From: a bacterium
GTDB lineage: Bacteria; Chloroflexota; Dormibacteria; Aeolococcales; Bog-877
Reading direction: 5' to 3'
Length of the DNA stretch: 64,000 nt
NCBI GenBank assembly: GCA_021795235.1
Contig: JAJYPP010000007.1
Location: 1-64,000, forward strand
Shown here: piece by piece, positions 5,428-48,996 of the stretch
How positions within the stretch are numbered: position 1 is the stretch's first letter
Layout: each line of letters opens with the position of its first letter
Made by a program: the position numbers and the translations under genes
Notes under the pieces: model-generated
Told to the model about the DNA's origin: nothing
Database searches by the model: none
Seen by the model: the letters and a program-made list of their open reading frames with translations, nothing else

Positions 5428-6375
5428 TTGCCCTATCTACTGCAGTTCCTGCAGTCGTTTGCGGTTGTCCTCTTCGCGCCCTTGTACGCGGGCGCTTTGG
5501 TCAAGGCGTCGGCCCTTGTGCAGTCGAAACGCGGTCCTAGCGTCCTCCAGCCCTACTGGGATCTGCGCAAGTGGTTGGGCAAGGGCAGTGTCTATTCGGA
5601 CCAGGTCAGCCCTGTGTTCAAGGCAGCTCCCTACGTAGCCATGGCGTGTTACCTGGTGGTCTCCACCATCGTGCCGGTGATTACCGATCAGCCCCTGCCT
5701 CTTGCATTCCTGGGTGACCTCCTCGGCGGCGCGCTGGTGCTGGCCCTGGCTAGCTTCGTGATGTCCTTGGCGGCGCTGGATACGGCCAGCCCCTTGGGCG
5801 GCCTGGGGGCTAGTCGTACCACCTGGATCGGCAGTCTCGCCGAGCCGGCTCTCATCCTCGTGTTCTTCACCGTCGGGGTGCTGTCCGCCTCCGACAACCC
5901 CTATCTCATGAACCACGCCATCGCCGCTTCCCCGCTGGCCATGGTGCTGCCCACCCACCTGCTGGGGGCGGTGGCGTTCTTCATGCTCCTGCTGGCAGAG
6001 ACCGGTCACATCCCGGTCGACAACCCGGCGGGAACGATTGAGATCTCGATGATCGAGGAGACCCGGGTCCTGGAGTACTCCGGGCGCGAATACGCGATCG
6101 TCAAGTGGGGCGGGTGGATGAAGCTGTTCTTGCTCTCCGCCATCTTCATGAACGTCTTCGTCCTGCCGGGAGGACTCGGCAGCGCCAGCAGCCTGGCGGG
6201 TGGGTTGATCGGCATAGCCGCGGTCCTTGGCAAACTGGCCCTGTGTGGGGTCGCGATCGTGGTAATCGACTCCTCCTTCGCCAAGCTCCGGTTCTTCCGA
6301 ATTGCCGAATATCTCGGCGGCGCTTTTCTGCTGGCGCTCATCGGCATCATCACCTCGTACGTGGTGGCGAAGTAG
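5428..6375 (+). CDS. Ehr/Hyf complex 1, HyfC/NuoH-like membrane subunit
   Basis: 315 aa, multi-TM; LVKASALVQSKRGPSVLQPYWDLRKWLGKGSVYS, ETGHIPVDNPAGTIEISMIEETRVLEYSGREYAIVKWGGWMK. Confidence 0.88.
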   Translation: MPYLLQFLQSFAVVLFAPLYAGALVKASALVQSKRGPSVLQPYWDLRKWLGKGSVYSDQVSPVFKAAPYVAMACYLVVSTIVPVITDQPLPLAFLGDLLGGALVLALASFVMSLAALDTASPLGGLGASRTTWIGSLAEPALILVFFTVGVLSASDNPYLMNHAIAASPLAMVLPTHLLGAVAFFMLLLAETGHIPVDNPAGTIEISMIEETRVLEYSGREYAIVKWGGWMKLFLLSAIFMNVFVLPGGLGSASSLAGGLIGIAAVLGKLALCGVAIVVIDSSFAKLRFFRIAEYLGGAFLLALIGIITSYVVAK

Positions 6376-7050
6376 ATGCAGGATTTCTCCTTGGCTTCGC
6401 CGGCCGGAGTCGTGCTGAGCTTGGACGCGGTGCTGATCCTGTTGCTTGCCCTGGCGTGTCTAGGGTCAAAGCTCTTCGACCGCTATCTCACCTACTACGG
6501 GCTGCAGTCCGTGTTGCTGGCGGTTGCGGCTGGCACGGCTGCGTTCGTCGAGAGGGATCCGGCCCTATGGATCCTCGCGGTCCTCACACTCGTGCTGAAA
6601 GGCATCGCCATTCCAACGGCGGCGCGCCGGCTCTTGGTACGCCGTCTTCAATTGAAACGCGACGTGGCGACGATCGTCGGCCCATCCACCTCGCTAATCC
6701 TCGGAGCAGTGCTGGCCGGCTTCGCCTACCTCGTGATCGGGCCACAGCATCTCGCCCACGGGCTGATAGCCGCTTCGATCATCCCCATATCCACCGCTGT
6801 CATCTTGATAGGAGCGCTGACCATGGTGATTCGACGTCACATGGTGGCTCAGCTCCTAGGCTGGCTCATTATGGAGAACGGCGTCTTCCTGGGCGGGATC
6901 ACGTTGACAGCGAGCTTTCCTTTCATCGTTGAGGCTGGCATATTCTTTGACCTTATCGCTGGCTTTCTGATCATGCTGGCGATGACCACCGGGCTCGCCG
7001 AGAGCCTCACGACCACCTTGGCGGGCCGCCAGCGGCGGGAGCCGACATGA
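6376..7050 (+). CDS. Ehr/Hyf complex 1, HyfE/NuoK-like membrane subunit
   Basis: 224 aa, multi-TM, directly abuts HyfC; LGWLIMENGVFLGG...AGIFFDLIAGFLIMLAMTTGL. Confidence 0.85.
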   Translation: MQDFSLASPAGVVLSLDAVLILLLALACLGSKLFDRYLTYYGLQSVLLAVAAGTAAFVERDPALWILAVLTLVLKGIAIPTAARRLLVRRLQLKRDVATIVGPSTSLILGAVLAGFAYLVIGPQHLAHGLIAASIIPISTAVILIGALTMVIRRHMVAQLLGWLIMENGVFLGGITLTASFPFIVEAGIFFDLIAGFLIMLAMTTGLAESLTTTLAGRQRREPT

Positions 7051-8525
7051 TAGTCCTGCCGATCGCCGCCGCCTTGACGCCGCTGCTAGGGACGGCCGCT
7101 GGACTCTTGACGGCAAGGGCCCGTGTCGCGGGGGTTACCGCGATCATCGGCGGAGCACTATGCTTGGTCCTCACGATCGGCAGTGCCGCCGTGGTGATGG
7201 CCGGCCGGCCGATTCAATCCGCCGGCAGCCTGGTCTACCTGGACGGGTTGGGGGCCTTCTTCGCGCTGACGATCGCCGTGGTCATCCTGCTGTCGAGTCT
7301 GGGCTCGCTGTCCTACCTCGCGGTGGAGCAGCGTCGCGGCGTCCTCTCACCACGTCGCGTGCGCGTTTACTTCGTTGTGTTTGGCCTCTTCGCTACCGGA
7401 ATGATGGCGGCCGTGGAGACGGCCAACCTCGGGCTCCTGTTCATCTTGGTGGAGGCGGCCACTCTCGCCAGCGTGGTATTGGTTCCGATCGAGGGGCGCA
7501 CGTCGGGCTTGGAAGCCGGTTGGCGCTACGTCGTGGTGAGCAGCATGGGGATCACCATGGCGTTGGCGGGGACCCTATTCGTCTTCTACGCCGCCACCGG
7601 AATCCCGGGTGCGCCGGAACAACACCTGGCTTGGGCATTTCTGGTCCGTCACGCGGGCTCGTTGCAGGCCGTCAGCCTGCGCTTGGGCTTTTTGCTGGCA
7701 GTGGTCGGATATGGGACCAAGGTCGGTCTGGTGCCGATGCACACTTGGCTTCCAGATGCCCATGCGGAAGCGCCGAGTCCGGCCAGCGCCATGCTGTCAG
7801 GGGCGCTTCTCAATGTGGGGATGTACGCGATCATCCGCTTTGTGGCGATCGCCAACGGCCGCCTCGGGCCCGCGTACGCGGGGCACGTACTGCTGGTGTT
7901 TGGCTTCCTGTCGGTCATCGTGGGGGCTCTCTTCATGATCCGTCGCCGGGACTTCAAGCGGCTGTTCGCATATTCCTCGGTGGAGCATATGGGGATCATC
8001 GCCATCGGTTTGGGCTTCGGGGGACTGTTGGGTGTCTATGGGGCCCTCCTGCATGTCCTTAACCACAGCATCGGTAAGACGCTGCTGTTCCTGACCGGAG
8101 GGAGCGTGGTGCTGGCCTACGGGACCCGCCGGAGCGACCGCATCGGAGGGGTGGTGTCGAGCCTGCCTCTGACCGGGGCCGCTCTCCTGGTGGGCTCCTT
8201 GGCCATCCTCGGATCCCCCCCGTTTGGGCTGTTCCTCAGCGAGTTCACCATCATCCGGGCCGGGTTGGCGGCTACCTATCCGGGCCTGGTGGGCCTGTTT
8301 CTCTTGCTCCTGGTGGTCATCTTCATCGGTTTCTTGCGTACCACCAGCGGGATGGCTCTAGGTCCGGCCGAGCCCCGGGTTGGCTCCCCATACAGCGGGC
8401 GGCTCGAGCGCTGGTCGGCCCACGCGCCGGTGGTGCTGGGGCTCGGGGCAGTCCTACTGCTCGGGCTGTGGGTGCCGGGTTGGTTGAACGCGCTGCTGTT
8501 GCGGTCGGTGGCCCTGGTGCGATGA
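7047..8525 (+). CDS. Ehr/Hyf complex 1, HyfF antiporter-like subunit
   Basis: 492 aa; [46 protein letters not shown]; overlaps HyfE by ATGA. Confidence 0.9.
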
Positions 8526-10105
8526 TCGACGTGACCGCGTCAGAGCTCCAGAGCGTGCTGAGTCTACTTCCCGGGACGGCTGAGCGGCCGGCTCAGAACG
8601 GTGTCGTGCGTTGGACATGCGAAAGCGCGGACACGCTGGCCGCAGTGCGCCACCTCAGTGTTGCCGGCGCCCGCCTGGCCGACATGTTTCTGCTCCCGGA
8701 GGGACGGCCGCAGGACGGCGGCTGGCTCATGCAGCGGGTCACGGTCTTCGCTCTGGACCGTCTTGGGGTATATCTGGAGTTGCGGAGCCCGGTTGGCGAC
8801 GGGCCTGCGGAACCGTTGTCCACCGTGGTCCCGGGGGCGTACCTAGAGGAGTGCGAGATCTTCGAGCTCTGGGGGGTGCTGCCCGCGACAGGGGTTCCTC
8901 TGAACCGTGTCCTTCTGCCACCCAATCGAGAGGCTGGCGAACCCCTCCGGGGTTCTCGGCACAAGGCTAGGTCCGCCTGGGTCCCGTCGGAGGTGCGAGC
9001 ACCGCAGGTGGTGCAGGGAGAGGCCTTCGAGTTCCCCGTCGGCCCGGTGCGCGGCGCGGCCCAGGAGTCCCTCTACATGGGCCTGGTTACGACCGGGGAG
9101 GAGCTTCTTGACGCCTATCTGGCCTGGTTCCACAAACACCGCGGCATTGAGCACAGGTTGGTCGGGCTGGTTCCCGATCAGGCGCTGTTCTTGGTTGAGC
9201 GGTGTGAGGGCTTGGGAGCGGTGGGAAATGCCATCGCGCTCGCCGAGGCGATTGAGGCGGCAACGGGAATCGAGGTCCCCGACGCGGCATCTCGCACCCG
9301 CACCCTGGCGCTGGAGATGGAGCGTATCTATAACCACGTCGCCGCAGTGGCCGCGCTTTGTCAAGCCACCGGTCTGGGTGTCGGGCAGGCGGAGATGGAG
9401 ATCCTGCTTGAGGACTTCCTGCGTCTGAATGCCGTTGTGTTCGGGCACCGCTACCTTTTCAACGTGGTCGCGGTGGGGGGGATCCAGCGCGGCTGTGACC
9501 CGACCGCGCTCGACGGTTCGCTGGAGGCGCTCTGTCAGCGGTTCTTCGCTTCGATTGCTGCCCTGTTGGCCACCAACTCCTTTGTGGACCGATTGGAGAA
9601 TGCCGGCATCGTGTCGGCTCAGGCGGCGGCCCGACTCGCCTTGGTGGGGCCTCTAGCCCGAGCCTCAGGTGGTGGGCAGGACTGCCGTCTGGATCATCCC
9701 TGGAACGGCCACTATGTCGGGCTTACAGTCGCGGCTGAGCCAGATGGCGATGTCTTAGCCAGATTGCGGGTGGCGATCAAGGAGGTCGCCGAAGCCGAGC
9801 GGTTGATCCACCACTGGGTCCGGTCCACCGAGCTGGTGGACATCTCGGTGGCGCCGGGGCCCCTGCGAGGTACCGCTTCCCGGACAGCGTCGGGTGAAGC
9901 TCTGGGTTGGTGCGAGTCTCCGCGGGGGGAGGCGCTCGCCTGGACCAGGGTGCAAGATGGCCGGCTGGTGGCAGCCAGGCTCAGGCCCGCCTCAGTGCGT
10001 AATTGGCGCGCGTTCGATGATGCCTTGCGGGCCCGGAACGTATTCACAGATGTCGCCATCGTGGAGGCGAGCTTCTGGCTGACAGTGGCTGGGTTCGCGC
10101 GCTGA
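8522..10105 (+). CDS. Ehr/Hyf complex 1, fused 30/49-kDa (HyfG-like) large subunit without Ni-binding Cys pairs
   Basis: [43 protein letters not shown]-terminus [18 protein letters not shown]. Start ATG 8522 overlaps the HyfF stop. Confidence 0.88.
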
Positions 10106-10440
10106 TGGCCAACTGGTTTCTGAGGGGCCTGTGCCGGGGAGTGGTGACCACCAGGTACCCGAGACGAGCGGACCCATCAGCCGCCGACCTGCCCGGGCCG
10201 CCAACCTTTGACGGGCGCCAAATGGACCAGGCGCTAGCCAGGCTGTTGGTGAGCGTCTGTCCGAGCGCGGCGCTGAGCCTGGAGGCCGATCTGTTGGTGC
10301 TCGACATCTCGACCTGCACCGCGTGTCAGCGCTGCCTGCCTGTAGCCGGCCGCGCCGGGCGGCCCAGTGCCAGATTCGAGTGGGCAGCTCGGGACCGCCG
10401 TACGCTGAGAGTCGAGTTCCCGCTGGGTGGTTCCCGATGA
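10105..10440 (+). CDS. Ehr/Hyf complex 1, small ferredoxin-like subunit with one recognisable [4Fe-4S] motif
   Basis: 111 aa; VCPSAA...STCTACQRCLPVAG; N-terminus FLRGLCRGVVTTRYP matches the N-terminal domain of the 16110-16955 fusion protein. Confidence 0.75.
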   Translation: MANWFLRGLCRGVVTTRYPRRADPSAADLPGPPTFDGRQMDQALARLLVSVCPSAALSLEADLLVLDISTCTACQRCLPVAGRAGRPSARFEWAARDRRTLRVEFPLGGSR

Positions 10441-10988
10441 GAGCTGACGCCTTGTCACCGCCGAGGACTGGTCACGAGGGCATTCGGGGGGGCCTCGAAG
10501 CGGTCCCAATCAGCGAAGCTGCCGCACGGCTGAGACGACGCTCGGTACAGCTCTTCGGCCGCAGCCTGCACATCCGGACGGTTGACACAGGTTCCTGTGG
10601 TGCTTGCGAATCTGAGCTGAGGCTACTCGCGTCGCCCCGCTACGACTTCCACAGACTGGGACTGTTCTTTACGCCCTCACCTCGTCATGCGGACTGCCTG
10701 ATGGTGACCGGGCCCGGAACGCTGGCGATGGACCACGCCCTCCTGACGACTTACGAAGCCATGCCCGATCCCAAGATCGTGGTCGCCGTCGGCGCTTGTC
10801 CCATGGGTGGTGTCTTCGGGCCCGATGAGTACAGTCACGGGGACCTGAGCGGCCAGCTCCCGGTGGATGTCTACATTCCGGGATGTCCGCCGAGTCCCCT
10901 GGCTCTGATCCAGGGCCTGCTCCTAGCCTTAGATCGTGTCCACCCAGAGACGGGCGGGGGGCGGCCCCTGAGGACAGGCAATGAGTGA
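10437..10988 (+). CDS. Ehr/Hyf complex 1, NuoB/HycG-like small subunit
   Basis: LHIRTVDTGSCGACESELRLLASPRYDFHRLGLFFTPSPRHADCLMVTGPG...VGACPMGGVFG...PVDVYIPGCPPSPLALIQGLL; four cluster-N2-type Cys retained. ATGA overlap with the preceding gene. Confidence 0.9.
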   Translation: MRADALSPPRTGHEGIRGGLEAVPISEAAARLRRRSVQLFGRSLHIRTVDTGSCGACESELRLLASPRYDFHRLGLFFTPSPRHADCLMVTGPGTLAMDHALLTTYEAMPDPKIVVAVGACPMGGVFGPDEYSHGDLSGQLPVDVYIPGCPPSPLALIQGLLLALDRVHPETGGGRPLRTGNE

Positions 10989-12996
10989 GCCGACCACCGT
11001 CTTGTTGGTGGCCATAGGGCTGCTGTGGGCCGCGGCAGGCACCTGGGCCGCACTGGTGCGGAGTGGGATCGGGCTGAGGGTGGCGGCCGGCTTGTCATTT
11101 GCGGGCGGCGCGGCCGCGCTCACGGCTGGGGTCATGGAGCTCGTGGACCACGCCGTGGTTCGAGTCGAGTTGTCCTCAGGAGTCGCAGGCGCGGTGGCCC
11201 TTGTGCTCACCCCGTTGGGGGCGGTCTTTCTGGTGGCACTGGGATTGGTGGCGATGGCGATTGCCGCCAACGTCCCGCGTTCCCACCGAGCGGGTCCGGG
11301 CACCGGGACCTATCTGGTCGCCTATCACCTGGCGCTGGTGGCGAGTCTGCTTATCCTCCTGGCCGGAACGGTAACAGTGTTCCTGGTCGCCTGGGAGACC
11401 ATGACCGCGGCCAGCTACATCGTGGCCTTGAGGCACCACCGAGCTCGCGGGGTCACCCACGGGGCGTTCCTCTTCATTGCCCTGGGCGAGGTTGGATTCG
11501 CGATGGTGGTCGCCGCGTTTGCGATTCTGGCAGTGCGCACCGGCAGCCTCGACTTCGCGGTCATCCACAGCCACGCGCGCCAAGTCGGTAGTGGCTGGGA
11601 AGACGCCGTGTTCCTGCTGGTTCTGCTCGGCTTCGCGTTCAAGGCCGGCTTCATACCGCTGCACCTGGCGCTGCCGGAGGCCGATCCGGTCGCTCCCCCG
11701 GATGGGGCTGCCTTCCTCTCGGCGATCGTGACCAAGCTGGCGGTCTATGGGATCTGCTTGGTGAGCTTCAGGCTCTTGCCTTCAGGACCCGTTTGGTGGG
11801 GGCTGACCGCCATGTCCCTGGGCGCCGCGTCGGCGGTTCTAGGCGTTCTGTACTCACTCATGGAGCGCGACTGGAAGAGGTTTCTCGCCTATTCGACAAT
11901 TGAGAACTTGGGCATCATCCTTATCGCGGTGGGGGGAGCCCTGACATTCATGGAGTCCGGGCAGCCAGCGATCGCCGCCCTTCTGCTGATCGCAGGCCTC
12001 TATCACGTGCTGAATCACTCGACCTACAAGGCCCTGCTCTTCCTGCAGGCAGGGGTCGTGGAGGCTGTCACTGGGCTGCGGGACCTGGACCGGCTCGGCG
12101 GGCTGATGCGACGTATGCCGAGAACCGCAGTGATCACCCTCGTCGGAACCCTGGGAATAGCTGCGCTGCCGCCTCTGAACGGATTCGTCAGTGAGTGGCT
12201 GGTATTTCAAGGCTTGTTCCAGGGGTTCCGCATCCAGAGCCACCTGGTGGCGGTCTTGCTGGTGGTTACGGCGGCCTGCCTCGCACTCACGGGTGGCTTG
12301 GCCGTCAACGCCTTTGCCAGGATGTTTGGCATTCCCTTTCTGGGAATGCCTCGCAGCAACGGGGCCGCCCAGGCCACTGACCAGGGCCAGCCGGTGGTCG
12401 GCGGCGCGCTCCTGGCGGCCGCATGCGTCCTGCTGGCCCTCGGCGCCCCGGTCGTCCTCACTGGCCTCGACGGTGCGGTGGCTTCGGTCACGGGCGTGAA
12501 CATCCTTGCGACACTTGTGGTCCCTGGCCTGACCGTGATCCCGGCGCACACCAATTTCAGCTCCTTCTCTCCAACCTACCTGGCGGTCTGCTTGGTGGCG
12601 ATGCTCGCGGTGCCGCTGCTCTTGGTTCGGCTGAGGCGTCGTGGGGTCTTGGACCGTACCGCCCCCGTGTGGGCGGGAGGCATCTACCGGTTCCGGCCGC
12701 GGATGCAGTACACGGCTACCACTCATGCCAACCCCGTGCGCGTCACCTTCGATGAGCTCTACCGCCCTCATATCGAGGTCACCCGGGCGTCGGATGAACC
12801 CGCCGGGCAGTCGGGCCCCGTGCACTACGGGTTCAGGGTCACACCGCTGTTTGAGCGCTACCTGTATCAGCCCGTGATTCGTCTGGTGGAAGCAGTGGCG
12901 CGGCGTGCTCAGCCAATCCAGTCCGGTGACCTCAATCTCTACTTGCTATATGTGCTGGTGGCAATATTGGCCGCCTACGCGGTGGCAGTGCATTGA
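10981..12996 (+). CDS. Ehr/Hyf complex 1, HyfB antiporter-like subunit
   Basis: 671 aa; VAWETMTAASYIVALRHH, FAFKAGFIPLHLALPEADPVAPPDGAAFLSAIVTKLAVYG, FLAYSTIENLGIIL, LYHVLNHSTYKALLFLQAG. Confidence 0.9.
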   Translation: MSEPTTVLLVAIGLLWAAAGTWAALVRSGIGLRVAAGLSFAGGAAALTAGVMELVDHAVVRVELSSGVAGAVALVLTPLGAVFLVALGLVAMAIAANVPRSHRAGPGTGTYLVAYHLALVASLLILLAGTVTVFLVAWETMTAASYIVALRHHRARGVTHGAFLFIALGEVGFAMVVAAFAILAVRTGSLDFAVIHSHARQVGSGWEDAVFLLVLLGFAFKAGFIPLHLALPEADPVAPPDGAAFLSAIVTKLAVYGICLVSFRLLPSGPVWWGLTAMSLGAASAVLGVLYSLMERDWKRFLAYSTIENLGIILIAVGGALTFMESGQPAIAALLLIAGLYHVLNHSTYKALLFLQAGVVEAVTGLRDLDRLGGLMRRMPRTAVITLVGTLGIAALPPLNGFVSEWLVFQGLFQGFRIQSHLVAVLLVVTAACLALTGGLAVNAFARMFGIPFLGMPRSNGAAQATDQGQPVVGGALLAAACVLLALGAPVVLTGLDGAVASVTGVNILATLVVPGLTVIPAHTNFSSFSPTYLAVCLVAMLAVPLLLVRLRRRGVLDRTAPVWAGGIYRFRPRMQYTATTHANPVRVTFDELYRPHIEVTRASDEPAGQSGPVHYGFRVTPLFERYLYQPVIRLVEAVARRAQPIQSGDLNLYLLYVLVAILAAYAVAVH

Positions 12997-13188
12997 GCAT
13001 GCCGGAGCGTGCATCCTCCCATCGCTCAAGGCCGCGACGCCTGCGGCACACGTCAGCTGCCCGACCCTTCGCCCCGCGACCAGGGCCAACCCCGAACCGG
13101 GGACTATGGTGCCGTAGGCCGCGGCGCACGAGGGGGGGCACTGCGCCCGTGGTCGGCGGCGGCGGTGGGGCCGTACCCCAATCTCCGA

Positions 13189-13533
13189 ATGGAGTTGGAA
13201 CTGATGGGCCGCGGCTGCAGGCTCATGAGCGTGTTGGAGCGTCGCACCCACAAAGCCGCGGGACTCGGCCTCGCCGAGTGCGAGATTCTGGTCAGGGTCG
13301 CGGCGGTCGCATGGGGTACCATCACGATGTCTGGTCTGGCCGTTCAGAGCGGTCTGACGCTGAGTGGAGTGAGCCGGGTGGTGGATCGGCTGGAATGGCG
13401 ATCTCTTGTCGAATGCCACATCGGCGTCAGGGACCGCGGGCAGACCCGGGTGCAGGTGACGGCTTCAGGCGCAGACATCGTGCGCGACCTGCTGGATCTG
13501 CTGGACGATGCCTGCCGCGAGGGTCTGGTGTAG
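13189..13533 (+). CDS. MarR-family winged-helix regulator
   Basis: LGLAECEILVRVAAVAWGTITMSGLAVQSGLTLSGVSRVVDRLEWRSLVECHIGVRDRGQTRVQVTASGADI; start uncertain. Confidence 0.72.
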   Translation: MELELMGRGCRLMSVLERRTHKAAGLGLAECEILVRVAAVAWGTITMSGLAVQSGLTLSGVSRVVDRLEWRSLVECHIGVRDRGQTRVQVTASGADIVRDLLDLLDDACREGLV

Positions 13534-14026
13534 CAGCACAGGTGGCGGCTGGCCGCCACCTGGAGATCCTGGGCGCGGTGGCAAGTGTTGCGCGCGCCAT
13601 CGGAGAATGAGGTCACGACAGCTACAGATCCCAACGTCGTGGGGAACTCTAGAGCCAGCGGCACCATCGACCGATGGATATGTTTGTCCGTACGGTTCGC
13701 CGCCATCCCGTCGATGCTGTGCAGGGCATCCCCACCCCTCTCAGCGGTCTCTTCGAACGGGCAGCCATCGAGGTGGTCACCTGCGACGGTGATCTCCATG
13801 CGTAGCGCTTCCACATCGACGTCAGCAACCGCCAAGGTCACACCTGCCACGGCGACGTCAGAGTCGACCGCCTCCAGGAGGGGCCCCGCCATGGCCCTGC
13901 CCCCGTGGAGAAGTAGGCGGCGGCTGTCCCTTCCGGCGACGCCGCTGGCCCGGGGCCACCGCCGGCCGCGACTTCCACCTGGGTGCCGTGCCCCTTGTGC
14001 AATGCCTGTCATCAGCGACGCCATCC

Positions 14027-16120
14027 CTATCCGTGGATCAGGAGCACCACCACCATGACGGCCACAAGGTACAGCAGGTAAAGACTGACGTTGCCAGCCT
14101 GGATCACCCTCGACCATCTTGAGATGCGCCGGGCGGCGCCTACCAGGGGGCGGTACAAGTAGGTCTCGACCGGCTCCACCACGCGGCGCTCGTAGCGCAC
14201 GGAGTGAGCGTAGTACGGCGCCTGGTGATAGTCCTGCTGGACGGACCTTTGGTCGCCGAAAATGCCTCCGAAGGTGGACCGGAAGAGGTTTGTGAAGGCC
14301 GTGGCCGTGTACTGCATCGATGGGAGAAATGGACGTCCCGCCCCCACCCAGACATCGTGCTCCACCCGCTCGCGCCGACCGAGGAAGTGGATGACGACCG
14401 CGACCAGGGCGATGATCGCCAGCAGGCTCAAGCAGATGTAGGTCGGGGAGATGAACGAGTAGCCGAAGCTGGTGGGAGTGATCACCACGCCGTTGCCGGG
14501 CAGGATCTGGCTCAGGAATGTTCCGCCCAGCCGCACCGGCAAGGCGAACTGCGCGGGGTGCAGGAATAAGGGGGGCAGCATCGCGTTCAGGAGTCCTGGC
14601 ACCCGGGTCGCTCCGCTCGCAGAGGTGGCAGCCGCGCCGATTCCGATCGCGGGCACCAGTGCGGTGATCACGGCCGCACCGGCGGTGATCAGCATCCCCA
14701 GCCGCATGGTGCGAGGGACCTCTCGAGCGTTGCGGGCATCGCGGCTCCTGGGAGCGCCCAGGAAGGCGGCTCCGAACACCCTGAGGTAGGCGGTGGTGGC
14801 CAAGGCGAAGGTCAAGGTCAGCAGCATGCCGGCGCCGGCCATGTAGAGCCGACTCTCGGGAGTGTCCAGAATGCGGGCCCGAATCAGCATCTGCAGGCCC
14901 AGCCACTCGGTTTGGAAGCCATTCAAGGGCGGGATTCCAGCCAGCCCCATGGCGCCCACGAAAAACAGCAGGGTCGCCCAGCGCATCCGCCTGGCCAGGC
15001 CCCCCAGGCGATCCAGGTCCAGTCCGTGGGCGGCGACATCGACGCACCCGGCGCCCATGAAGGCGGTGCTCTTCAGGAGGGCATGGTACAGGGCGTGCAG
15101 AATGGCCACCACCAAGGCGGCCGCGCCGAGGAGGGCCTGATGGCTGCTGGTAAAGACCAGCGCCAGGCCCACCATCGCGATCATGAAGCCCAAATTCTCC
15201 ACCGTGCTGTAGGCCAGCATGCGTTTGAGGTTGGGCACCAGCAGCGAGAAGAGCACGCCATAGACGGCGGTGATGACGCCCACTCCCAAGGTGAGATATC
15301 CCCACCACGCGGCGGGGGGACCGAGCAGGGTGACCACGGTCAGGATCATCCCGTAGACTCCCATCGCGACCACGATGCCTGACAGCGCCGCGGACACATT
15401 GGCTGGTGCTGCGGGATGGGCTTCCGGAAGCCAGCCCTGCAGCGGCACCAGTCCCGCCTTCACTCCGAACCCGACCAGGAAGAGCACAAAGGCTGCGGAT
15501 GCGATGCCGGCGCTGAGGTCCGGGTGCTGGGCGAGGGCCGTGAAGGTGACCCCGGTCCTCAGGGCTCCGATGGCCAGAAACCCGACGGCCATGGCGATGA
15601 ATCCGATCTTGGACAGAGCCAGCATCAGAAAGGCTGCCTGGGGTCGCCCCGGGCGGTCGAACTCCACGGTCACCAGCACGTAGGTGGAGATGACCATCAC
15701 CTCCCAGGCCAGCAGGAAGGTGAAGGCGTTGGCCGCTGCCAGCACCAAGATGGTGGCGGCGAAGGTGACGTTGAGAAGGCAGTGCACGCAGGCCTGGCGG
15801 AGGACTCCGCCCACGTGCGGGGTGTAGCCGGCGCTGAACAAGGAGACGCCGGTCCCCACCAGCCCGGTGAGCAGCAGGAAGGTTGCCGCCAGCGGCGTGG
15901 CACTGAACGCGAATCCTCCCAGCGGAGTGCTGATGGGCAGCGTCACCTGGGCCCTGGCGCCGCCCAGCCAGGTGGCGGCGGTCGCCACCACCAGAACTCC
16001 GCCCACCACCCCTGACGCCGCGGAGAGGTCAGCGAACCCGCGCCATCTGAGGACCCCCAGGCCGGTCAGACCAGCGATGGTGTAGCAGGCCAACGCTGCC
16101 CACAGGAGCTCAAGTGCCAC
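14027..16120 (-). CDS. Ehr/Hyf complex 2, HyfB antiporter-like subunit
   Basis: 697 aa; LLAWEVMVISTYVLVTVEF, FGVKAGLVPLQGWLPEAHPAAPANVSAALSGIVVAMGVYG, MLAYSTVENLGFM, LYHALLKSTAFMGAGC. Confidence 0.9.
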   Translation of the reverse strand: MALELLWAALACYTIAGLTGLGVLRWRGFADLSAASGVVGGVLVVATAATWLGGARAQVTLPISTPLGGFAFSATPLAATFLLLTGLVGTGVSLFSAGYTPHVGGVLRQACVHCLLNVTFAATILVLAAANAFTFLLAWEVMVISTYVLVTVEFDRPGRPQAAFLMLALSKIGFIAMAVGFLAIGALRTGVTFTALAQHPDLSAGIASAAFVLFLVGFGVKAGLVPLQGWLPEAHPAAPANVSAALSGIVVAMGVYGMILTVVTLLGPPAAWWGYLTLGVGVITAVYGVLFSLLVPNLKRMLAYSTVENLGFMIAMVGLALVFTSSHQALLGAAALVVAILHALYHALLKSTAFMGAGCVDVAAHGLDLDRLGGLARRMRWATLLFFVGAMGLAGIPPLNGFQTEWLGLQMLIRARILDTPESRLYMAGAGMLLTLTFALATTAYLRVFGAAFLGAPRSRDARNAREVPRTMRLGMLITAGAAVITALVPAIGIGAAATSASGATRVPGLLNAMLPPLFLHPAQFALPVRLGGTFLSQILPGNGVVITPTSFGYSFISPTYICLSLLAIIALVAVVIHFLGRRERVEHDVWVGAGRPFLPSMQYTATAFTNLFRSTFGGIFGDQRSVQQDYHQAPYYAHSVRYERRVVEPVETYLYRPLVGAARRISRWSRVIQAGNVSLYLLYLVAVMVVVLLIHG

Positions 16121-16955
16121 GGCCGTCCTCCCCGCGATCGTGACCGTAGCGTTCCTCGGCCCGGTCTATTGCCAGCAGCAGGCCGTGGAGCATTGCCTGC
16201 GGGGTGGGTGGGCACCCGGGCACGTAGGTGTCCACCGGCAGCAGGCGGTCCAGCGGTCCCTTGGTCGTGGGCCCATGGGCAAAAACGCCTCCGCTGACGG
16301 CGCAGGCGCCGGCCGCGATCACCAGCTTGGGCTCCGGGATGGCCCTGTACGTCTCCAGTAGCGGCTCCTCCATGTTCGCGGTCACGACCCCGGTCACCAA
16401 TAAGGCGTCGGCATGGCGCGGGGTGGGGGTGAAGAAGAGCCCCAGGCGGTGGAGGTCGACGTAGGGCGAGCCCAGCATCTGCAGCTCCGACTCGCAGCCG
16501 TTGCAGGAGCCGGCATCGACGTGGCGGATGTGCAGGGAGTGGCGAAACAGCCGGTACGCTCGTCGCTGGACCTGGGCTGCCTCCCGCCGCAACGCAGCCG
16601 GAGCCGGAGGCTGCCCATCCTGCCAGCTCAAGACCATCTGCAGCCGACCTCGGTCACGCACAGCTACCCGGGGATCCGCGACAGACTGGAAGGCCTCTGG
16701 CAGGAGCCGTGTGCACCGGCCGCACATGACGCAGGCGCCGGCATCGAAGCGAAGTTCACCGTTCTCGTGGGTCCCTGTGGCCGAGATCGCATCGGTCGGG
16801 CACAGAGCCGCGGCCGACAGGGCCTTCGACCCGGTCAACTTCTGCCAGTGCAGCGCGACGGTGGAGCCGGCCTGCTCTTCGGCGACGGCCCTGGGATCCG
16901 GAAACCGGGTGGTCCTGATGCCGCGGCGCAGACCGCCCACGATCCAGCGACTCAT
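16110..16955 (-). CDS. Ehr/Hyf complex 2, ferredoxin-like domain fused to NuoB/HycG-like small subunit
   Basis: MSRWIVGGLRRGIRTTRFPDP...LCPTDAISATGTHENGELRFDAGACVMCGRCTRLLPEAF fused to LHIRHVDAGSCNGCESELQMLGSPYVDLHRLGLFFTPTPRHADALLVTG...AGACAVSGGVF...YVPGCPPTPQAML. Confidence 0.88.
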   Translation of the reverse strand: MSRWIVGGLRRGIRTTRFPDPRAVAEEQAGSTVALHWQKLTGSKALSAAALCPTDAISATGTHENGELRFDAGACVMCGRCTRLLPEAFQSVADPRVAVRDRGRLQMVLSWQDGQPPAPAALRREAAQVQRRAYRLFRHSLHIRHVDAGSCNGCESELQMLGSPYVDLHRLGLFFTPTPRHADALLVTGVVTANMEEPLLETYRAIPEPKLVIAAGACAVSGGVFAHGPTTKGPLDRLLPVDTYVPGCPPTPQAMLHGLLLAIDRAEERYGHDRGEDGRGT

Positions 16956-18505
16956 CGATCGAACTCCGCATGGGAGAGGGCGAAGCTGGCCTCGATGACG
17001 GGAAAGTCGGTGAGATTGTTGCCGCTGGCGCAGGCGTGCGCGAAGGGGTGCCAGTTGACGACTGCCGGCGGGCGAGCCCGCCAACTGATCACCAACCCCT
17101 CCGCGTCCAGGGTCACGAAGTGCAACGCCTGGCCGCCTGGAGCCTCTGCCCAGCCGAGCGCCGAACCCGGTCGAGCCGGGGCCACCTCGGGTGGATGGGT
17201 ATCGGCCGGCCATCCCTCCAGGAGCTGAGTGATTATGGCCAAGGACTGTTCCAACTCCAGGGCATGGACCTGGTATCGGGCCTTGGCGTCGCCATCGGCG
17301 AAGACTGGCACCTGGAATTCGACTTGGGAATAGGCCGCGTACGGGTGGTCGCGCCGAACGTCGCGGTCGATGGCACTGGCCCTGCCCACGGGACCGACCA
17401 GGTAGTGCTCGGCGGCGTACTCAGGCTTTAGGAAAGCGGTGCCCTCCAGCCGGTCCACGAAGGTTGACGTCTCCTGCAGAAGGTTGCGCAGACGCCGGGT
17501 GTGCGTGATCCAATCACTCACCTGCTGGTGCAGCCACTCGCGGGCGGGACTTTCCGGCACCACCTCGGTCCCTCCCAGGCGCAGCACGCCCCGTAGGTAT
17601 CGATGTCCTGACATCCTTCCCGCGGCTCGCAGCACTTCTTCCTTGAGGAGGCCGTACTGGGCCCCAGCGACCAGTAGTCCGGTGGCTTCGGCCAGCCGCC
17701 CGATGGTGCCCAGATGGCTGTGTACACGCTCCATCTCGGCAAAGAGGGTGCGGGTGAACTCTTCTGGCGGCGCGACGACCGCTCCCATCGCGCGTTCGGC
17801 GGCCCTGCTGAAGGCAAGCGCATTGGCAAAGCACGAAGTGCCGGCCAGCCGCTCGGCGAGCTGGACGACATCGGCCGCCGGTCGACCCTCTGCCAGCCGT
17901 TCCAGCCCGCGGAACTTGAAGCCGAAGCTCATGTCGACCACCACGATGTCCTCACCTCCCGAGGCGAAGGAGAACCCTCCCGACTCCTGGGGCCCGCTGC
18001 GAACCGGGCCCAGCGGCAGATGGAAGACCCCTTGGCCGGTGACCGCCGGCCGGCCCGTCACTTCGCTGTGCCGCGGGGACTCTCCAGTGTGGAGATGGGT
18101 CCGAGCTCGGGAGGAGCGGTGCCCGGTAGCTTCCGGCTGCCGCAGCGGAGCGGGTGCCGGGTGCCCCAGAGGAGCCAGACCGTGCATCTCGAGGATATCG
18201 CGCTCGTACCAGCTGGCCGCGTGCGAGGATGCTATGAGGCTCGGGAACTCGGGCTGGCTGAGATCCGTGTGCACGATCAGCCAGGTCGGGTCTCCGGGAA
18301 CCTCCAAGATCGCGGTCAGGCGGGGCTGCCGGCCCACTGGGGTGGTGGCGAACCAGTCCGCCAGCCCAGCGACCTCCACCAGGTGGCCGAGCCGGACCTC
18401 TAGATCCTGCTCCTGGCAGAGGGATACCAGTTCATCCCGCGATCCGGCCCGCACGTCGAATCCCGCCGAGTCGGCCGCCGCTCGCGCGCTGGGAGCCGAG
18501 GTCAC
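16952..18505 (-). CDS. Ehr/Hyf complex 2, fused 30/49-kDa (HyfG-like) large subunit without Ni-binding Cys pairs
   Basis: FRGLERLAEGRPAADVVQLAERLAGTSCFANALAFSRAAE, LFAEMERVHSHLGTIGRLAEATGL, C-terminus LTDFPVIEASFALSHAEFDR. Confidence 0.88.
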   Translation of the reverse strand: MTSAPSARAAADSAGFDVRAGSRDELVSLCQEQDLEVRLGHLVEVAGLADWFATTPVGRQPRLTAILEVPGDPTWLIVHTDLSQPEFPSLIASSHAASWYERDILEMHGLAPLGHPAPAPLRQPEATGHRSSRARTHLHTGESPRHSEVTGRPAVTGQGVFHLPLGPVRSGPQESGGFSFASGGEDIVVVDMSFGFKFRGLERLAEGRPAADVVQLAERLAGTSCFANALAFSRAAERAMGAVVAPPEEFTRTLFAEMERVHSHLGTIGRLAEATGLLVAGAQYGLLKEEVLRAAGRMSGHRYLRGVLRLGGTEVVPESPAREWLHQQVSDWITHTRRLRNLLQETSTFVDRLEGTAFLKPEYAAEHYLVGPVGRASAIDRDVRRDHPYAAYSQVEFQVPVFADGDAKARYQVHALELEQSLAIITQLLEGWPADTHPPEVAPARPGSALGWAEAPGGQALHFVTLDAEGLVISWRARPPAVVNWHPFAHACASGNNLTDFPVIEASFALSHAEFDR

Positions 18506-19986
18506 CGTCCCGCCACCTGACTGGCTCCCACCAACATCGAGTGCAAGGGGCCGGGTATCCAGACGCCCAGGACCAGGACCGCCACCAGCAGGATGTAGCC
18601 CGGGGCCAGCACCGCCAGCCCGAGCTCTGCCCGAGGTGGCAGGGACTCGCCTTGACCCCGACCGAAAACCATCCGGTTGAACGGCTCCATGAGCGCCAGG
18701 AATGCGACCAGCAGCAGAGCCGCGATCCCAGCCCCAACGGCCCAGGCGTGGTTCAGCAGTGCTCCCCGGATGATGGTGAACTCGGAGATGAAGAGTCCGA
18801 ACGGAGGAGCGCCGGCGATCGCCAGCGCTCCCGCTATCACGAGGATCGCCGAGGCTGGGGCGACCCGGATCGCTCCCCGAACCTCATCGATAGTGGTGGT
18901 GCGGAAGCGCAGCAGGAGGTTGCCAGAGTTGAAGAACATCAGGCTCTTGGCCAGGCTGTGAGTGATCATCTGCAGCAGCGCGCCGACTGCGGCGACCGGC
19001 GCGCCGATGCCGAAACCCGCCGCGATCAGCCCCATCTGCTCGACGGACGAGTAGGCGAGCAGGCGCTTGAAGTTGCGCTGAGAGATCAGGAAGACGACAC
19101 CGACCACCATGGACAGAAGGCCAAAGGCGAGCAGGGCCTCGTGCAGTCCCACCGCGCGAGCCCTATTGGCAGGTGTCACCAGCGACAGCACCCGCACGAT
19201 CGCCAGCATCGCGCAGTTCAGCTCTGCGCCGGAGAGCATCGCGCAGACCGGGGCGGGCGCCTGACTGTGGGCGTCGGGCAGCCAGGTGTGCATGGGCGCC
19301 AGTCCCGCCTTGGCACCGAAGCCGACCAGCACCATGAGAAACCCGATGGCTCCCAGTGAGGCGGTGAGGTGGGGGCCCGCCTGCTCCAGGACCGGGATCG
19401 AGAAGTTGTAGGAGGTACCGAGGCGGGCGATGCCGGCCTCGTACAGCAAGAGGAACCCGAGCAGCGCTATCAACTCGCCGGCCACCGCCAGGACCAGAAA
19501 CTTCCACGCGGCCTCCAGCGGTTCGTGGGAGCCGTAGAAGTCCACCAGCGGAGCGGCGGCGAAGGTGGTGGCGGTGACTCCGGTCCAGAGCAGGATCAGA
19601 TTACCCGAGACCGTGGCCAGAATCATCGTGAACGTGAAGAGGTGGAAGAGGCCGAAGTACTTCCGCAGTTCACCCGGCCGGAGCACGTGGCCCTGGGCGT
19701 CACTGCGGAAGTAGGCGATGGAGTAGGCTCCCGCCAGGGTGGAGACCACCACCACCACCAGCAGGACCACCGCATCGAGATCATCCAGGTAAAGCCAGTC
19801 GCCAAAGGCGGTCACCGGGCCGGTGGCTAGGACGCGGGCGATCAGGGTGAAGGCGAGCGCCAAGGTCACCAGACAGGTGGGAAGCACCAGGGCGTAGCGC
19901 AGGCGATCGCTGCGCACCAGAGCGCTGGCGATCCCCGCGAGCAGCGGCACTGCCAGCATCGCCAGCAGGAGTCCCGGGTCGATCAT
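18502..19986 (-). CDS. Ehr/Hyf complex 2, HyfF antiporter-like subunit
   Basis: 494 aa; [63 protein letters not shown]. Confidence 0.9.
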   Translation of the reverse strand: MIDPGLLLAMLAVPLLAGIASALVRSDRLRYALVLPTCLVTLALAFTLIARVLATGPVTAFGDWLYLDDLDAVVLLVVVVVSTLAGAYSIAYFRSDAQGHVLRPGELRKYFGLFHLFTFTMILATVSGNLILLWTGVTATTFAAAPLVDFYGSHEPLEAAWKFLVLAVAGELIALLGFLLLYEAGIARLGTSYNFSIPVLEQAGPHLTASLGAIGFLMVLVGFGAKAGLAPMHTWLPDAHSQAPAPVCAMLSGAELNCAMLAIVRVLSLVTPANRARAVGLHEALLAFGLLSMVVGVVFLISQRNFKRLLAYSSVEQMGLIAAGFGIGAPVAAVGALLQMITHSLAKSLMFFNSGNLLLRFRTTTIDEVRGAIRVAPASAILVIAGALAIAGAPPFGLFISEFTIIRGALLNHAWAVGAGIAALLLVAFLALMEPFNRMVFGRGQGESLPPRAELGLAVLAPGYILLVAVLVLGVWIPGPLHSMLVGASQVAGR

Positions 19987-20627
19987 CCACGCAACCTGGT
20001 GAGCTCGGAAGTATCCGTGCCCGCTACCGCATCGCGCATGCGCGCGACCAAGAACCCCATGACCAAGACGGCGATGAGCACGTCCAGCACGATCGCCACT
20101 TCGATGACCAAGCTGAGCTGCGGTGCCACCACCAGGCTCAGCAGGAGCAGTCCGTTCTCAGCGGCCAGCAAGCCGGTGACCTGGAGGATGGCGTCGCGGC
20201 GGGCGATGGTCGTGAACAGACCAAGCAGGAATACCGCCAGGGAAATTCCCAGCACGGATTGGGGGAGGAACTGTGCTTCGAAGGGGAGCCGGGTGGCGGC
20301 CAGCAAGCCAATCAGGCTGAGTCCGGCCCCTACCAGCAGGGCGGTGGGGAACCGCACATAGTAGGCGATCTCCCGGCCGGCCACCAGGGCGAAGGCAACC
20401 CGGCGCCGGAGCAGTTGGGGGATGAGGATGCCCTTGACGGTCAGGATGAGTAGGCCGAAGAACAATAGCTCCAGCAACCGGGTGTCCAAGTAGAGGGCCA
20501 GAGAAACCAGTCCCAGCAGCCAGGACTGGACGGCGTAGGCGGAAACCGCGCTGCTGAGGCGGCGGGTCACGATGAACCAGTAAGTGACCAGCAGCAGCAG
20601 CGCGGAGAGGATCACCTCAGCCAGCAC
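19983..20627 (-). CDS. Ehr/Hyf complex 2, HyfE/NuoK-like membrane subunit
   Basis: 214 aa, multi-TM; VTGLLAAENGLLLLSLVVAPQLSLVIEVAIVLDVLIAVLVMGFLV; same position as HyfE in operon 1. Confidence 0.85.
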   Translation of the reverse strand: MLAEVILSALLLLVTYWFIVTRRLSSAVSAYAVQSWLLGLVSLALYLDTRLLELLFFGLLILTVKGILIPQLLRRRVAFALVAGREIAYYVRFPTALLVGAGLSLIGLLAATRLPFEAQFLPQSVLGISLAVFLLGLFTTIARRDAILQVTGLLAAENGLLLLSLVVAPQLSLVIEVAIVLDVLIAVLVMGFLVARMRDAVAGTDTSELTRLRG

Positions 20628-20663
20628 GTCCGCTCCCTCGCGAGCTGCCGCCCGTGCGTCTCA

Positions 20664-21611
20664 TCAGTGTCCCACCGTGTAGAGCGCCAGCCCGAGGAAC
20701 GCCAGGACGAAGCTGCCTCCGAGGTACTCGGGCACTCTCATGATGCGGATCTTCGCCAGGGCCGACTCGATTCCCACCAGGAGGATGGCGGCAGCCAACA
20801 TCTTGCCAGCCAGGGTGGCGATGGCCACCGCGAAGGCGGGAATGCTGATGGCACCGGCCAGGCCCAACGGGAAAACCAACACGTTGAGCCAGACGATCAG
20901 CAGCACGAAGAGCTTCATGAAGCCGCCCCACTCGAACAGCGCCAAGTCCGGGCCGGAGAACTCATAGAGCCGCGAGGACTCGATCATCGAGAGCTCTTGG
21001 GAGCTGTTGGGGTTGTCAATCGGCAAGCGGCCCGCTTCCGCCAGGATCACCATCAGGAAGGCGGCGGCAATCAGCGCATGGCTGGGCACGATGTGCGCGG
21101 AGCTGGTGAAGAGCGCATCGTTGACCACGAAGGGCACGGTGCCCCCCGAGATGAAGCCCACCGCGAAGAAGACCACGATGAAAGTCGGCTCGGCCAGCGA
21201 GGAGACGAAACGCGATCGGCTGCTGCCCAGGCCCCCGTAGGGGCTGCCGCCGTCCATGGCGGCCAGGTTGGTGAAGAAGCCCCCGATCCCGATTACAAAG
21301 CCGCTACCGACCATGTCGGCCATGAATGCCCAGCTGAGAGGGGCCGCGGTCAGGACCGGAATCAGCATCGCGAACGCGATCGGAGTTGCGAATACGATGT
21401 ACGGTGCCACCACCGAGACGGCGGATCCGTGCGGCGTGCGGCTTCTCTGCTTGCGCAGGAGTTTGGCGAGGTCGTAATAGGGCTGCCAAGGGGGGGCCCC
21501 CCGGCGCGACTGGACCTTGGCCTTCAGGTTCTCGATGACTCCCTTAAGCAGCGGGGACAGTGCTACCACCGTCACCACGGCAATAAGCTGCCCGATGGCG
21601 GCCGCTAACAT
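20664..21611 (-). CDS. Ehr/Hyf complex 2, HyfC/NuoH-like membrane subunit
   Basis: 315 aa; LKAKVQSRRGAPPWQPYYDLAKLLRKQRSRTPHGSAVSVVAPY, AEAGRLPIDNPNSSQELSMIESSRLYEFSGPDLALFEWGGFMK. Confidence 0.88.
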   Translation of the reverse strand: MLAAAIGQLIAVVTVVALSPLLKGVIENLKAKVQSRRGAPPWQPYYDLAKLLRKQRSRTPHGSAVSVVAPYIVFATPIAFAMLIPVLTAAPLSWAFMADMVGSGFVIGIGGFFTNLAAMDGGSPYGGLGSSRSRFVSSLAEPTFIVVFFAVGFISGGTVPFVVNDALFTSSAHIVPSHALIAAAFLMVILAEAGRLPIDNPNSSQELSMIESSRLYEFSGPDLALFEWGGFMKLFVLLIVWLNVLVFPLGLAGAISIPAFAVAIATLAGKMLAAAILLVGIESALAKIRIMRVPEYLGGSFVLAFLGLALYTVGH

Positions 21612-24311: not shown

Positions 24312-24374
24312 GCCACCAAGTCTTACATGTCACTCATGCTCGCTTAGCAAAAGCGGTCACTGCTGCGGACCCTG

Positions 24375-24809
24375 TTGCAGGCCCATCGCTTGCTGGAGGT
24401 CTCGTTGAGCCGGCGCCTGGTGGCGGCGACCGGACCCTCGCTTTCGGAGGCCGAGGTGCTGGTGCGGCTGGCGGCGGCCGCCGGGGGGCGTATGGGCATG
24501 CTGGAACTCGCTCATGCCACCTGCTTCAGCAAGAGCGTCGTGAGCCGGATCGTGGATAGGTTGGAGCGTCGGACGCTGGTCCTGCGCCTGGTTTCCACCG
24601 AGGATCGGAGATTGATCTGGGTCGAGGCGACCGGGGAGGGCCGCGACCTGCTGTGGGAGCTGCTGGCAGCCCTCCAGGTGGCCGTCGAAGAGGACTTCGC
24701 CCGGTACCTGAGTGACGAGGACGTGACCGCCCTGGCGGATCGGCTCGACAAGCTGGTGGCTGGCATCAGGGGAGCGGAGCGCCAAGACGCGGCCCCTGGC
24801 GGTCGGTAG
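24375..24809 (+). CDS. MarR-family regulator
   Basis: LSEAEVLVRLAAAAGGRMGMLELAHATCFSKSVVSRIVDRLERRTLVLRLVSTEDRRLIWVEATGEGRDLLWELLAAL; TTG start uncertain. Confidence 0.75.
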   Translation: MQAHRLLEVSLSRRLVAATGPSLSEAEVLVRLAAAAGGRMGMLELAHATCFSKSVVSRIVDRLERRTLVLRLVSTEDRRLIWVEATGEGRDLLWELLAALQVAVEEDFARYLSDEDVTALADRLDKLVAGIRGAERQDAAPGGR

Positions 24810-48023: not shown

Positions 48024-48922
48024 TACGACCGGGCCGCTTCGCCCTGGAGAGGACGTTGAGAAGCTAGGGGCATGGCCTGACTGCACGGTACGCCTCTTCA
48101 CCCCTAACTTTCAAGTAGCGTCCCATGGGGGCGGAGGGAGCGGGCGGTCTCCAATCGTTCTTCGGTGCTGGTCGCGAGCCGCGGCCAAAGGCAGCTACGA
48201 CTGTTCCAACAACCGCTGGCGGCCTCGACACTCGGCGAGCCGGCCCCTGGCATTCAGGGCCGCAACCGGGAGCCAGAAGCCAGGGTGCGCAAGCCGGCCA
48301 GCCAGGCCTCCGCACTCTGGCGCGGGTTTGTAGCTCACCACTCGGACATGCGGCAGGAGGTCTGCGGCGGCTACGAGCTGGAACGGTGTCAAGCGGAGTC
48401 AGAGGGGACGCCAGGATGGCTCCTGGGGGCAGCAGCAGGGCTCGCGAAACGGGGATGCAGGGCGAACCGCTCGGCACTGTCCCGGAAGAGGGCCTCCTGC
48501 GGCAGGCCCGGATCGTGGGCCGATGCTCTGCGACCTGCTCGAAGAGGCTCGGTCAATACGAACTCCCTGGCGGCATGGAGGGGGAAGCCGCTCGCTCATG
48601 GGCGGCGTGCCCCGCCACTCTGCTATGAGATGGTCCACGGTCGAGCCGGTGTTGAGCGCCACTGTAGATCAGGATCGGGGAGCAGGTAGGCGCCACTGAC
48701 GGCTGGGCCGTGGTTGGCGGTGGCACCAACTCGGCTACTGGACGATTGCGGTCGGTCGTCAAGAGGCGCACGCTCAGCGCTGCTGGGCGCCTTCCAAGCT
48801 CGCGGGGATCCTGCTCTGGCTTCCACCAGAGCGGGATTCACTCATCTGTCCACCCCATCCCCGCCCCGCCCGATTCGCTATCCTGAATTTGGGAGTGCAT
48901 GGGTCCAGGTGGGCCCCTCGAT

Positions 48923-48996
48923 CTTCAAAATCGATGGGGGGCGCGACATCGCGTCCCCGGAGGGATCGTTCCCCTCGCCTCCCGCCAATTCAAAAT
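48923..48996 (+). repeat. Dispersed structured repeat, copy A (core only)
   Basis: CTTCAAAATCGATGGGGGGCGCGACATCGCGTCCCCGGAGGGATCGTTCCCCTCGCCTCCCGCCAATTCAAAAT; homologous to copies at 54197 and 58839. Confidence 0.88.

Follow-up and report, generated by a model that had tools for sequence, protein, structure and literature searches.

Introduction

Energy-converting hydrogenase-related (Ehr) complexes occur widely. They have been described in the Riflemargulisbacteria/Saganbacteria (PMC6349859) and in comammox Nitrospira (PMC10284858), with a function that is either unknown or suspected to be an ion-coupled redox process. The 64,000-nucleotide stretch of DNA analysed here, referred to as the window, corresponds to positions 1-64000 of contig C36 in a metagenome-assembled genome (MAG) of 3.67 Mb from a soil bacterium of the class Dormibacteria (G000; 92% complete, 7% contamination), whose closest named relatives are MAGs of Candidatus Dormiibacterota. 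It contains two operons of this type facing each other, operon 1 (T1) and operon 2 (T2). It appears reasonably probable that these operons specify two functional membrane complexes of the Ehr type, distinct from each other and both NiFe-free, which would differ in their electron acceptor and ion coupling and would not be redundant. A natural pair of this kind in one cell, differing at named coupling and pocket residues, offers a direct way to separate the electron-transfer parts from the ion-movement parts in the complex I family, and a third, related Ehr type devoid of the proximal cluster (T3) adds to the same question of what this family needs.

For comparison, loci were collected from Dormibacteria, other members of the phylum and Actinomycetota, and every operon was assigned to a type, i.e., T1, T2, T3 or the related groups X4, X5 and X6. 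Trees were built from the large subunit and from a concatenation of five subunits, with branch supports given as SH-aLRT values from quick searches.

Organization of the Two Convergent Operons

The first-pass annotation of the window had described two complex-I/group-4-hydrogenase-like operons meeting tail to tail, and this description is confirmed by open reading frame (ORF) calls and by Pfam and NCBIfam profiles. Operon 1 occupies positions 5428-12996 of the forward strand with the gene order C-E-F-G-H-I-B, and operon 2 runs on the reverse strand from 21611 down to 14027 with the order C-E-F-G-HI-B, about 1.0 kb separating the two stop codons. The gene order, initially given as the same for both operons, agrees overall, except that the ferredoxin, which has its own gene in T1, is fused in T2 to the NuoB-like small subunit to form a single protein of 281 aa.

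Operon 1 begins with a HyfC/NuoH-like membrane subunit (5428-6375, TTG start; PF00146, 106 bits), and the equivalents of NuoH residues D63, E157, E220 and E228 are mostly retained in the T1 subunits of this kind. It is followed, still on the forward strand, by a HyfE-like (NuoK-like) subunit (6376-7050; NCBIfam hydrogenase 4 membrane subunit profile at 57.6 bits, below the cut-off), a HyfF-like antiporter subunit (7047-8525; PF00361, 157 bits) with Glu136 in transmembrane helix (TM) 5, Lys225 in TM7 and Glu399 in TM12, and a HyfG-like large subunit (8522-10105; PF00346 and PF00374) lacking the NiFe cysteines and exhibiting Glu229 at the position of the first L1 cysteine. The last three genes encode a small separate ferredoxin (10105-10440) with one 4Fe-4S site recognized by alignment (C52P, C71xxC74xxC77), a NuoB/HycG-like small subunit (10437-10988; PF01058, 84 bits) with the four proximal-cluster cysteines, and a HyfB-like antiporter subunit (10981-12996; PF00361, 139 bits) which retains the TM5 Glu, TM7 Lys, TM8 Lys and TM12 Glu.

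Operon 2, entirely on the reverse strand, consists of a HyfC/NuoH-like membrane subunit (20664-21611; PF00146, 93 bits), a HyfE-like subunit (19983-20627) devoid of any Pfam match, assigned by position and homology and conserved across relatives, a HyfF-like antiporter subunit (18502-19986) in which the TM5 Glu is replaced by Thr138 and a new Glu255 occurs in TM8, and a HyfG-like large subunit (16952-18505; PF00346, 120 bits, and PF00329), again without NiFe cysteines, with Glu514 at the position of the last L2 cysteine. The fused ferredoxin and NuoB/HycG-like small subunit (16110-16955; PF01058, 99.5 bits) possesses eight cysteines for two 4Fe-4S clusters, and the terminal HyfB-like antiporter subunit (14027-16120; PF00361, 153 bits) retains the TM5 Glu, TM7 Lys and TM12 Glu, the TM8 Lys being replaced here by Ala.

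The T1 and T2 paralogues share about 30-38% identity and therefore do not result from a recent inverted duplication. In addition, G002, an independently assembled member of the same genus, carries the identical convergent layout, with the MarR gene in the middle, on a single 19-kb contig (L039, JAJZJU010000044.1), which argues strongly against an assembly artefact. Both a recent inverted duplication and an assembly fold-back are rejected on these two grounds, as the initial annotation had anticipated from the divergence of the paralogues. Gene by gene, the proteins of the window and of L039 are 65-92% identical for operon 1 and 77-94% identical for operon 2.

The interval between the two operons comprises a short MarR-family gene on the strand of T1 (+; 13189-13533, best start ATG at 13189) and about 0.5 kb without any recognized gene. 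These limits of the MarR gene were chosen from its reading frame and from the homologue in L039. The gene has an orthologue in the same place in L039, but it is short and its MarR_2 match of 20.6 bits lies below the Pfam cut-off. As a conserved regulator of the pair this MarR makes a weak candidate, the MarR gene of locus L043 being the orthologue of a second MarR gene at 24.4 kb and not of the inter-operon one. The two MarR genes of the window (24372-24793 and 13189-13533) are 44% identical, lie on the same strand and flank a block comprising T2, a catalase gene and a helix-turn-helix (HTH) gene, an arrangement which suggests a duplication around T2. The suggested co-regulation of T1 and T2 is conjectural, and unsupported where MarR is concerned.

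Purifying selection acts on both operons. In the comparison of G000 with G002, the nonsynonymous divergence (dN) ranges from 0.03 to 0.18 for all of the complex subunits except the T1 ferredoxin (0.27), and the synonymous divergence (dS) from 0.55 to 1.3. The resulting dN/dS ratio is close to 0.05 for the subunits C and F. In operon 1, G, H and I give roughly 0.08-0.2, and in operon 2 the value for G and I is about 0.2; the inter-operon MarR gene gives a dN of 0.32 and a dS of 0.96. For the same pair of genomes, the dN of NuoCD (0.024) and NuoB (0.009) contrasts with that of the Ehr G (0.14-0.18) and I (0.10-0.14) subunits, the hydrophilic arm thus evolving 6-15 times faster in both Ehr complexes than in complex I.

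Neither Hydrogenases nor Classical Complex I

All four NiFe ligand positions are occupied by residues other than cysteine in the large subunits of T1 (15/15) and T2 (12/12). In place of the L1 CxxC and L2 DPCxxC motifs of group 4 hydrogenases, every T1 sequence displays E/G-S..T/G and every T2 sequence A/S..S/E, the NiFe motifs being readily found in the positive controls, i.e., E. coli HyfG/HycE and actinobacterial Hyf. The NiFe maturation protein HypD was not found in G000 or in its congeners G001-G003, an absence which is likely but not certain in a MAG that is 92% complete; the same search detected HypD in G004, G018, G020, G023 and G025. A hydrogenase identity was rejected on account of the missing motifs and of the failure to find HypD.

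The quinone-ligand His and Tyr of complex I, contained in the motifs GPNHPSAHG and DRIEY of E. coli NuoCD, are replaced by an invariant Gln (Q181) and Gly (G230), respectively, in 16/16 T1 and T2 sequences, and this loss leads to the rejection of a classical quinone-reducing complex I. Among the ORFs and profile matches of both operons, no NADH-oxidizing module (NuoEFG) was found; canonical nuo genes occur elsewhere in the genome on contigs C57, C153 and C155. Formate dehydrogenase and HycB/HyfA-type linker genes were both missing from the operons and from the flanking ORFs examined, with the window scanned in part beyond these. A dehydrogenase partner close to the operons was likewise discarded, none being recognized in the flanks examined and the genes around 45 kb encoding a histidine kinase and a response regulator rather than a formate dehydrogenase.

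The iron-sulfur sites are conserved. The four proximal-cluster cysteines of the small subunit (CCCC) occur in T1 (13/13) and T2 (11/11), and the ferredoxin 4Fe-4S site is retained in every T1 and T2 sequence seen. NiFe-cysteine-free large and small subunits are thus combined in one operon with NuoH-like and antiporter-like subunits and with a NuoB-like proximal cluster and, judged by these features, T1 and T2 are Ehr-type complexes.

Residues Distinguishing T1 from T2

The most conspicuous difference resides in the HyfF-like subunit. The TM5 Glu equivalent to NuoM E144 is present in T1 (15/15), T3 (6/6), X4 (4/4), X6 (3/3), the other Ehr operons (13/13) and the NiFe controls (4/4), and is replaced by Thr, Ser or Ala in T2 (12/12) and by Ala or Gly in X5 (4/4). 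Conversely, a TM8 Glu, in the motif SGAELN, occurs in T2 (12/12) and X5 (4/4) at a position where nearly all others have Leu. Accordingly, the window opposes Thr138 and Glu255 in T2 to Glu136 and Leu254 in T1. The TM7 Lys and TM12 Glu are retained in T2, with Asp instead of Glu at TM12 in one sequence. Since the loss of the TM5 Glu and the gain of the TM8 Glu fall on one branch, they may be coupled, but they amount to a single evolutionary event. The AlphaFold2 model of the T2 HyfF (pLDDT 89, pTM 0.92) has MrpD, NuoM, MbhH and MbsH as its closest folds in the PDB and predicts a complete antiporter-like subunit. The pair formed by the TM5 Glu and the TM7 Lys is a motif common to every antiporter-like subunit (PMC9802314), and mutation of the Glu (E144A/Q) in NuoM/NuoL totally abolishes complex I activity, the E133A mutation in NuoN having only modest effects (PMC3046159). 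In this respect, the T2 HyfF can be regarded as a naturally occurring test of the central axis in antiporter-like subunits.

The emptied NiFe pocket also distinguishes the two types. A Glu occupies the position of the first L1 cysteine in T1 (15/15) and T3 (9/9), and that of the last L2 cysteine in T2 (12/12) and X5 (4/4); E. coli NuoCD exhibits an acidic residue at both positions. From these differences in HyfF and in the pocket, T1 and T2 are predicted to differ in their acceptor and in proton or Na+ coupling. The earlier suggestion of different partners or directions of electron and ion flow finds support at the level of residues, owing to the pocket carboxylate and to the TM5-to-TM8 Glu change that only T2 of the two displays in HyfF, and is putative as regards function.

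Phylogeny, Distribution and Pairing

All operons with the order C-E-F-G-HI-B, in which the HyfB-like gene comes last, form a single clade in both the large-subunit and the concatenated trees (SH-aLRT 100), the B-C-E-F-G-I and I-B-C-E-F-G operons falling outside. The three gene orders, I-B-C-E-F-G (L127, L128 and L133), B-C-E-F-G-I (L101-L113) and that of the window, are cyclic rotations of each other. Within the clade, T1 (100) comprises one group from Dormibacteria (100) and one from Acidimicrobiia (99), T2 has the Actinomycetota group X5 as its sister (99), and T3 groups with X6 (100); the branching order of T1, T2, T3 and X4 is not resolved by the trees. The T2 and T3 partners of T1 are consequently not supported as orthologues, T2 going with X5 and T3 with X6. 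The possibility, raised from the outset, that trees would place the two operons in unrelated, independently acquired families is contradicted by the single clade and is borne out to the extent that they belong to different subclades with different distributions. Within the limits of these trees, T1 and T2 have independent histories inside one family and do not represent unrelated families.

The T1 loci came from a single family of Dormibacteria and from Acidimicrobiia, and the T2 loci from the Dormibacteria families f1 and f2 and from one Bacillota-labelled contig (G245). Both types coexist in three Dormibacteria genomes, linked and convergent in G000 and G002 and on separate contigs in G004. 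Joint retention in one locus does not hold as a general rule, since most Dormibacteria keep T1 or T2 alone: T1 occurs without T2 in eight genomes, and T2 without T1 in G003, G006, G009, G011 and several f2 genomes. In the congener G003, T2 stands alone and in opposite orientation at the site occupied in the window by T1-MarR-T2, between an APC permease and the 24.4-kb MarR/aldo-keto reductase block, and T1 adjoins the permease in G001 and G000. In Acidimicrobiia, all six genomes with T1 also carry T3. The two operons are convergent in G242 and G244, convergent in G243 if a contig break within HyfB is bridged, in tandem in G241 and unlinked in G240 and G418. Linkage in 4/6 genomes is far above chance (binomial, ~6e-7 for a 50-kb target), the related genomes not being independent. 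Pairing thus recurs in two phyla with different partners, T2 in Dormibacteria and T3 in Acidimicrobiia.

This recurrence, together with the constant company of T3 in Acidimicrobiia, would be expected if T1 and its partner cooperated in one mixed or obligately paired assembly, e.g., a hetero-supercomplex in which one member is the redox machine and the other a modified pump or channel. Such an assembly is improbable. For T1 and T2, the many genomes that carry just one of them speak against it, since neither type depends on its counterpart in these genomes; T3 was likewise found without T1, in G304 and G497.

Proposed Mechanism

In the favoured reading of two distinct complexes, electrons from a ferredoxin-like donor would enter via one ferredoxin-type 4Fe-4S cluster, reach the NuoB-type proximal cluster and pass to an acceptor at the emptied NiFe pocket, the transfer being coupled to ion movement through the membrane arm formed by HyfC, HyfE, HyfF and HyfB. 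T1 would operate with the axis of TM5 Glu, TM7 Lys and TM12 Glu retained in both antiporter-like subunits, and T2, which has lost the TM5 Glu of HyfF, gained a TM8 Glu and carries a different pocket carboxylate, would have a changed coupling. The electron donor, acceptor, ion and direction are putative for both complexes, and neither acceptor, ion nor direction can be named from the sequences.

Several points weigh against this reading, which is drawn from sequence comparison. The quinone ligands are absent as well as the NiFe ligands, leaving T1 and T2 without any known acceptor site. Like NuoN E133A, which nearly is, the TM5 substitution of T2 might be neutral. The faster divergence of the G and I subunits fits relaxed redox constraint and adaptation alike. 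Finally, the proximal cluster has disappeared from T3 and from several other Ehr groups, and redox chemistry may accordingly be dispensable in the family.

Neighbouring Genes and Loss of the Proximal Cluster

In the T3 small subunits (L115:9419-10276, L117, L119, L121, L122, L124, L126, L131, L148), the proximal 4Fe-4S cysteines are replaced by D/E/D/S, or by D/D/D/S in one case. Proximal-cluster cysteines are also lost, often to Asp or Glu, in L099, L101-L104 and L109-L112, and taken together these losses indicate that proximal-cluster-free Ehr seems to have arisen several times.

Immediately downstream of T1, five loci of the Dormibacteria genus g5 have a tandem pair of MutS-type ATPases of about 550 aa (MutS domain V). 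The pair adjoins T2 in G031 and G044, occurs near T1 in the Acidimicrobiia G240, G243 and G244, and lies about 10 kb from Ehr in the X6 genomes. Loci with the pair comprise L042 (13889-17169), L046, L047, L048, L050, L053, L057, L118, L120, L122, L167 and L168, and the genome of the window has its own on contig C104 (78818-80808; L169). One member resembles KamC, a reactivase ATPase. The pair is associated with Ehr in Dormibacteria family f2 (4/4 versus 2/28; Fisher, 4e-4) and in Acidimicrobiia (4/7 versus 2/191; Fisher, 8e-6), both values being uncorrected for phylogeny. A dynamin-like GTPase stands beside T1, T2 or T3 operons (L050:13547-15280, L054:3745-6168, L118:5174-7582), between T1 and T3 in L121 (1100-2831) and next to the MutS pair in L171 and L172, with a further copy on contig C88 of the window's genome (L170). 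A literature search for neighbourhoods combining MutS, dynamin and hydrogenase found no published link.

The recurrence of these genes beside the operons, the acidic replacement of the proximal cysteines in nearly all T3 copies, the loss of both NiFe and quinone ligands in T1 and T2 and the fast evolution of the hydrophilic subunits would all suit a clade that has lost its redox function and now serves in ion translocation or regulation, perhaps with the MutS-like pair and the dynamin-like GTPase servicing its complexes. Both 4Fe-4S sites are nevertheless intact in all T1 and T2 sequences seen, a retention that would not be expected if no electrons were transferred, and such non-redox complexes are hardly a probable explanation. 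That two mobile, interchangeable Ehr operons simply landed at one integration-prone site, as the patchy distribution and the occupancy of the site in G003, G001 and G000 could suggest, is very unlikely in view of the coupling and pocket residues, which differ in a fixed manner from clade to clade, the strong purifying selection on both operons and the convergent pairing of T1 with a different type in another phylum.

The reading of two distinct complexes may be extended, speculatively and with rather little likelihood, to the whole rotated-order clade. This clade would have evolved division-of-labour pairs in which T1, a redox-competent pump, is repeatedly placed tail to tail with a partner with rebuilt coupling residues (T2) or a rebuilt proximal cluster (T3), associated in many genomes with the MutS-like and dynamin-like proteins, and would represent an undescribed membrane-energy system common to Dormibacteria and Acidimicrobiia.

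Other observations concern the surroundings of the operons. Several operons of the clade have genes for universal-stress-protein or CBS-domain proteins next to them (L096:13598-15493, L099, L100, L121, L122, L125, L126). In the window, a tRNA-Sec gene occurs at 48890-48986 and an AbiEi/AbiEii-type toxin-antitoxin pair at 52162-53778. SelA is encoded on the same contig shortly past the window (C36:68850-69926) and a second time on contig C17; these two SelA genes and the duplicate nuo sets (C57/C155, with NuoD-like genes on C153 and C155) are compatible with either a real duplication or the 7% contamination, by a close relative.

Comparison with Known Systems

The described Ehr complexes share with the window operons the NiFe-cysteine-free, group-4-like large and small subunits and the complex-I/Mrp-like membrane subunits, but have the HyfB-like gene first, whereas it comes last in the window (C-E-F-G-HI-B). 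The window further differs by the presence of two types side by side, by the TM5-to-TM8 Glu change of T2 and by the lack of a formate dehydrogenase recognized near the operons.

The group 4 hydrogenases of E. coli, Hyf and Hyc (formate hydrogenlyase, FHL), possess homologous B, C, E, F, G, H and I subunits, and the HycE of FHL (7z0s) is the best PDB match to the T2 large subunit. Unlike them, the window operons are devoid of NiFe ligands, HyfA, HyfD, HyfJ, a protease gene and formate dehydrogenase, and the search of the genome for HypD found none. The Rv0082-Rv0087 locus of Mycobacterium tuberculosis encodes an actinobacterial Hyc-like complex whose gene list matches the order I-B-C-E-F-G (PMC6901956). 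The Actinomycetota operons of this order collected here also lack the NiFe motif; they form a separate branch of the large-subunit tree, and the order, compared by means of the published gene list, is a cyclic rotation of C-E-F-G-HI-B.

Complex I (Nuo) resembles the window operons by its NuoH, NuoK, NuoL/M/N-type, NuoCD-like and NuoB-like parts and by the antiporter fold, and differs by its NADH module and by the quinone-ligand His and Tyr, which are Gln and Gly in the window. Finally, the Mbh, Mbs and Mbx complexes of Thermococcales, among which Mbs and Mbx are NiFe-free relatives, share a ferredoxin-linked group 4 architecture with the window operons, MbhH and MbsH being among the closest folds to the T2 HyfF. 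In contrast to these complexes, the window operons have no separate Mrp-type subunits and consist of another subunit set in another lineage.

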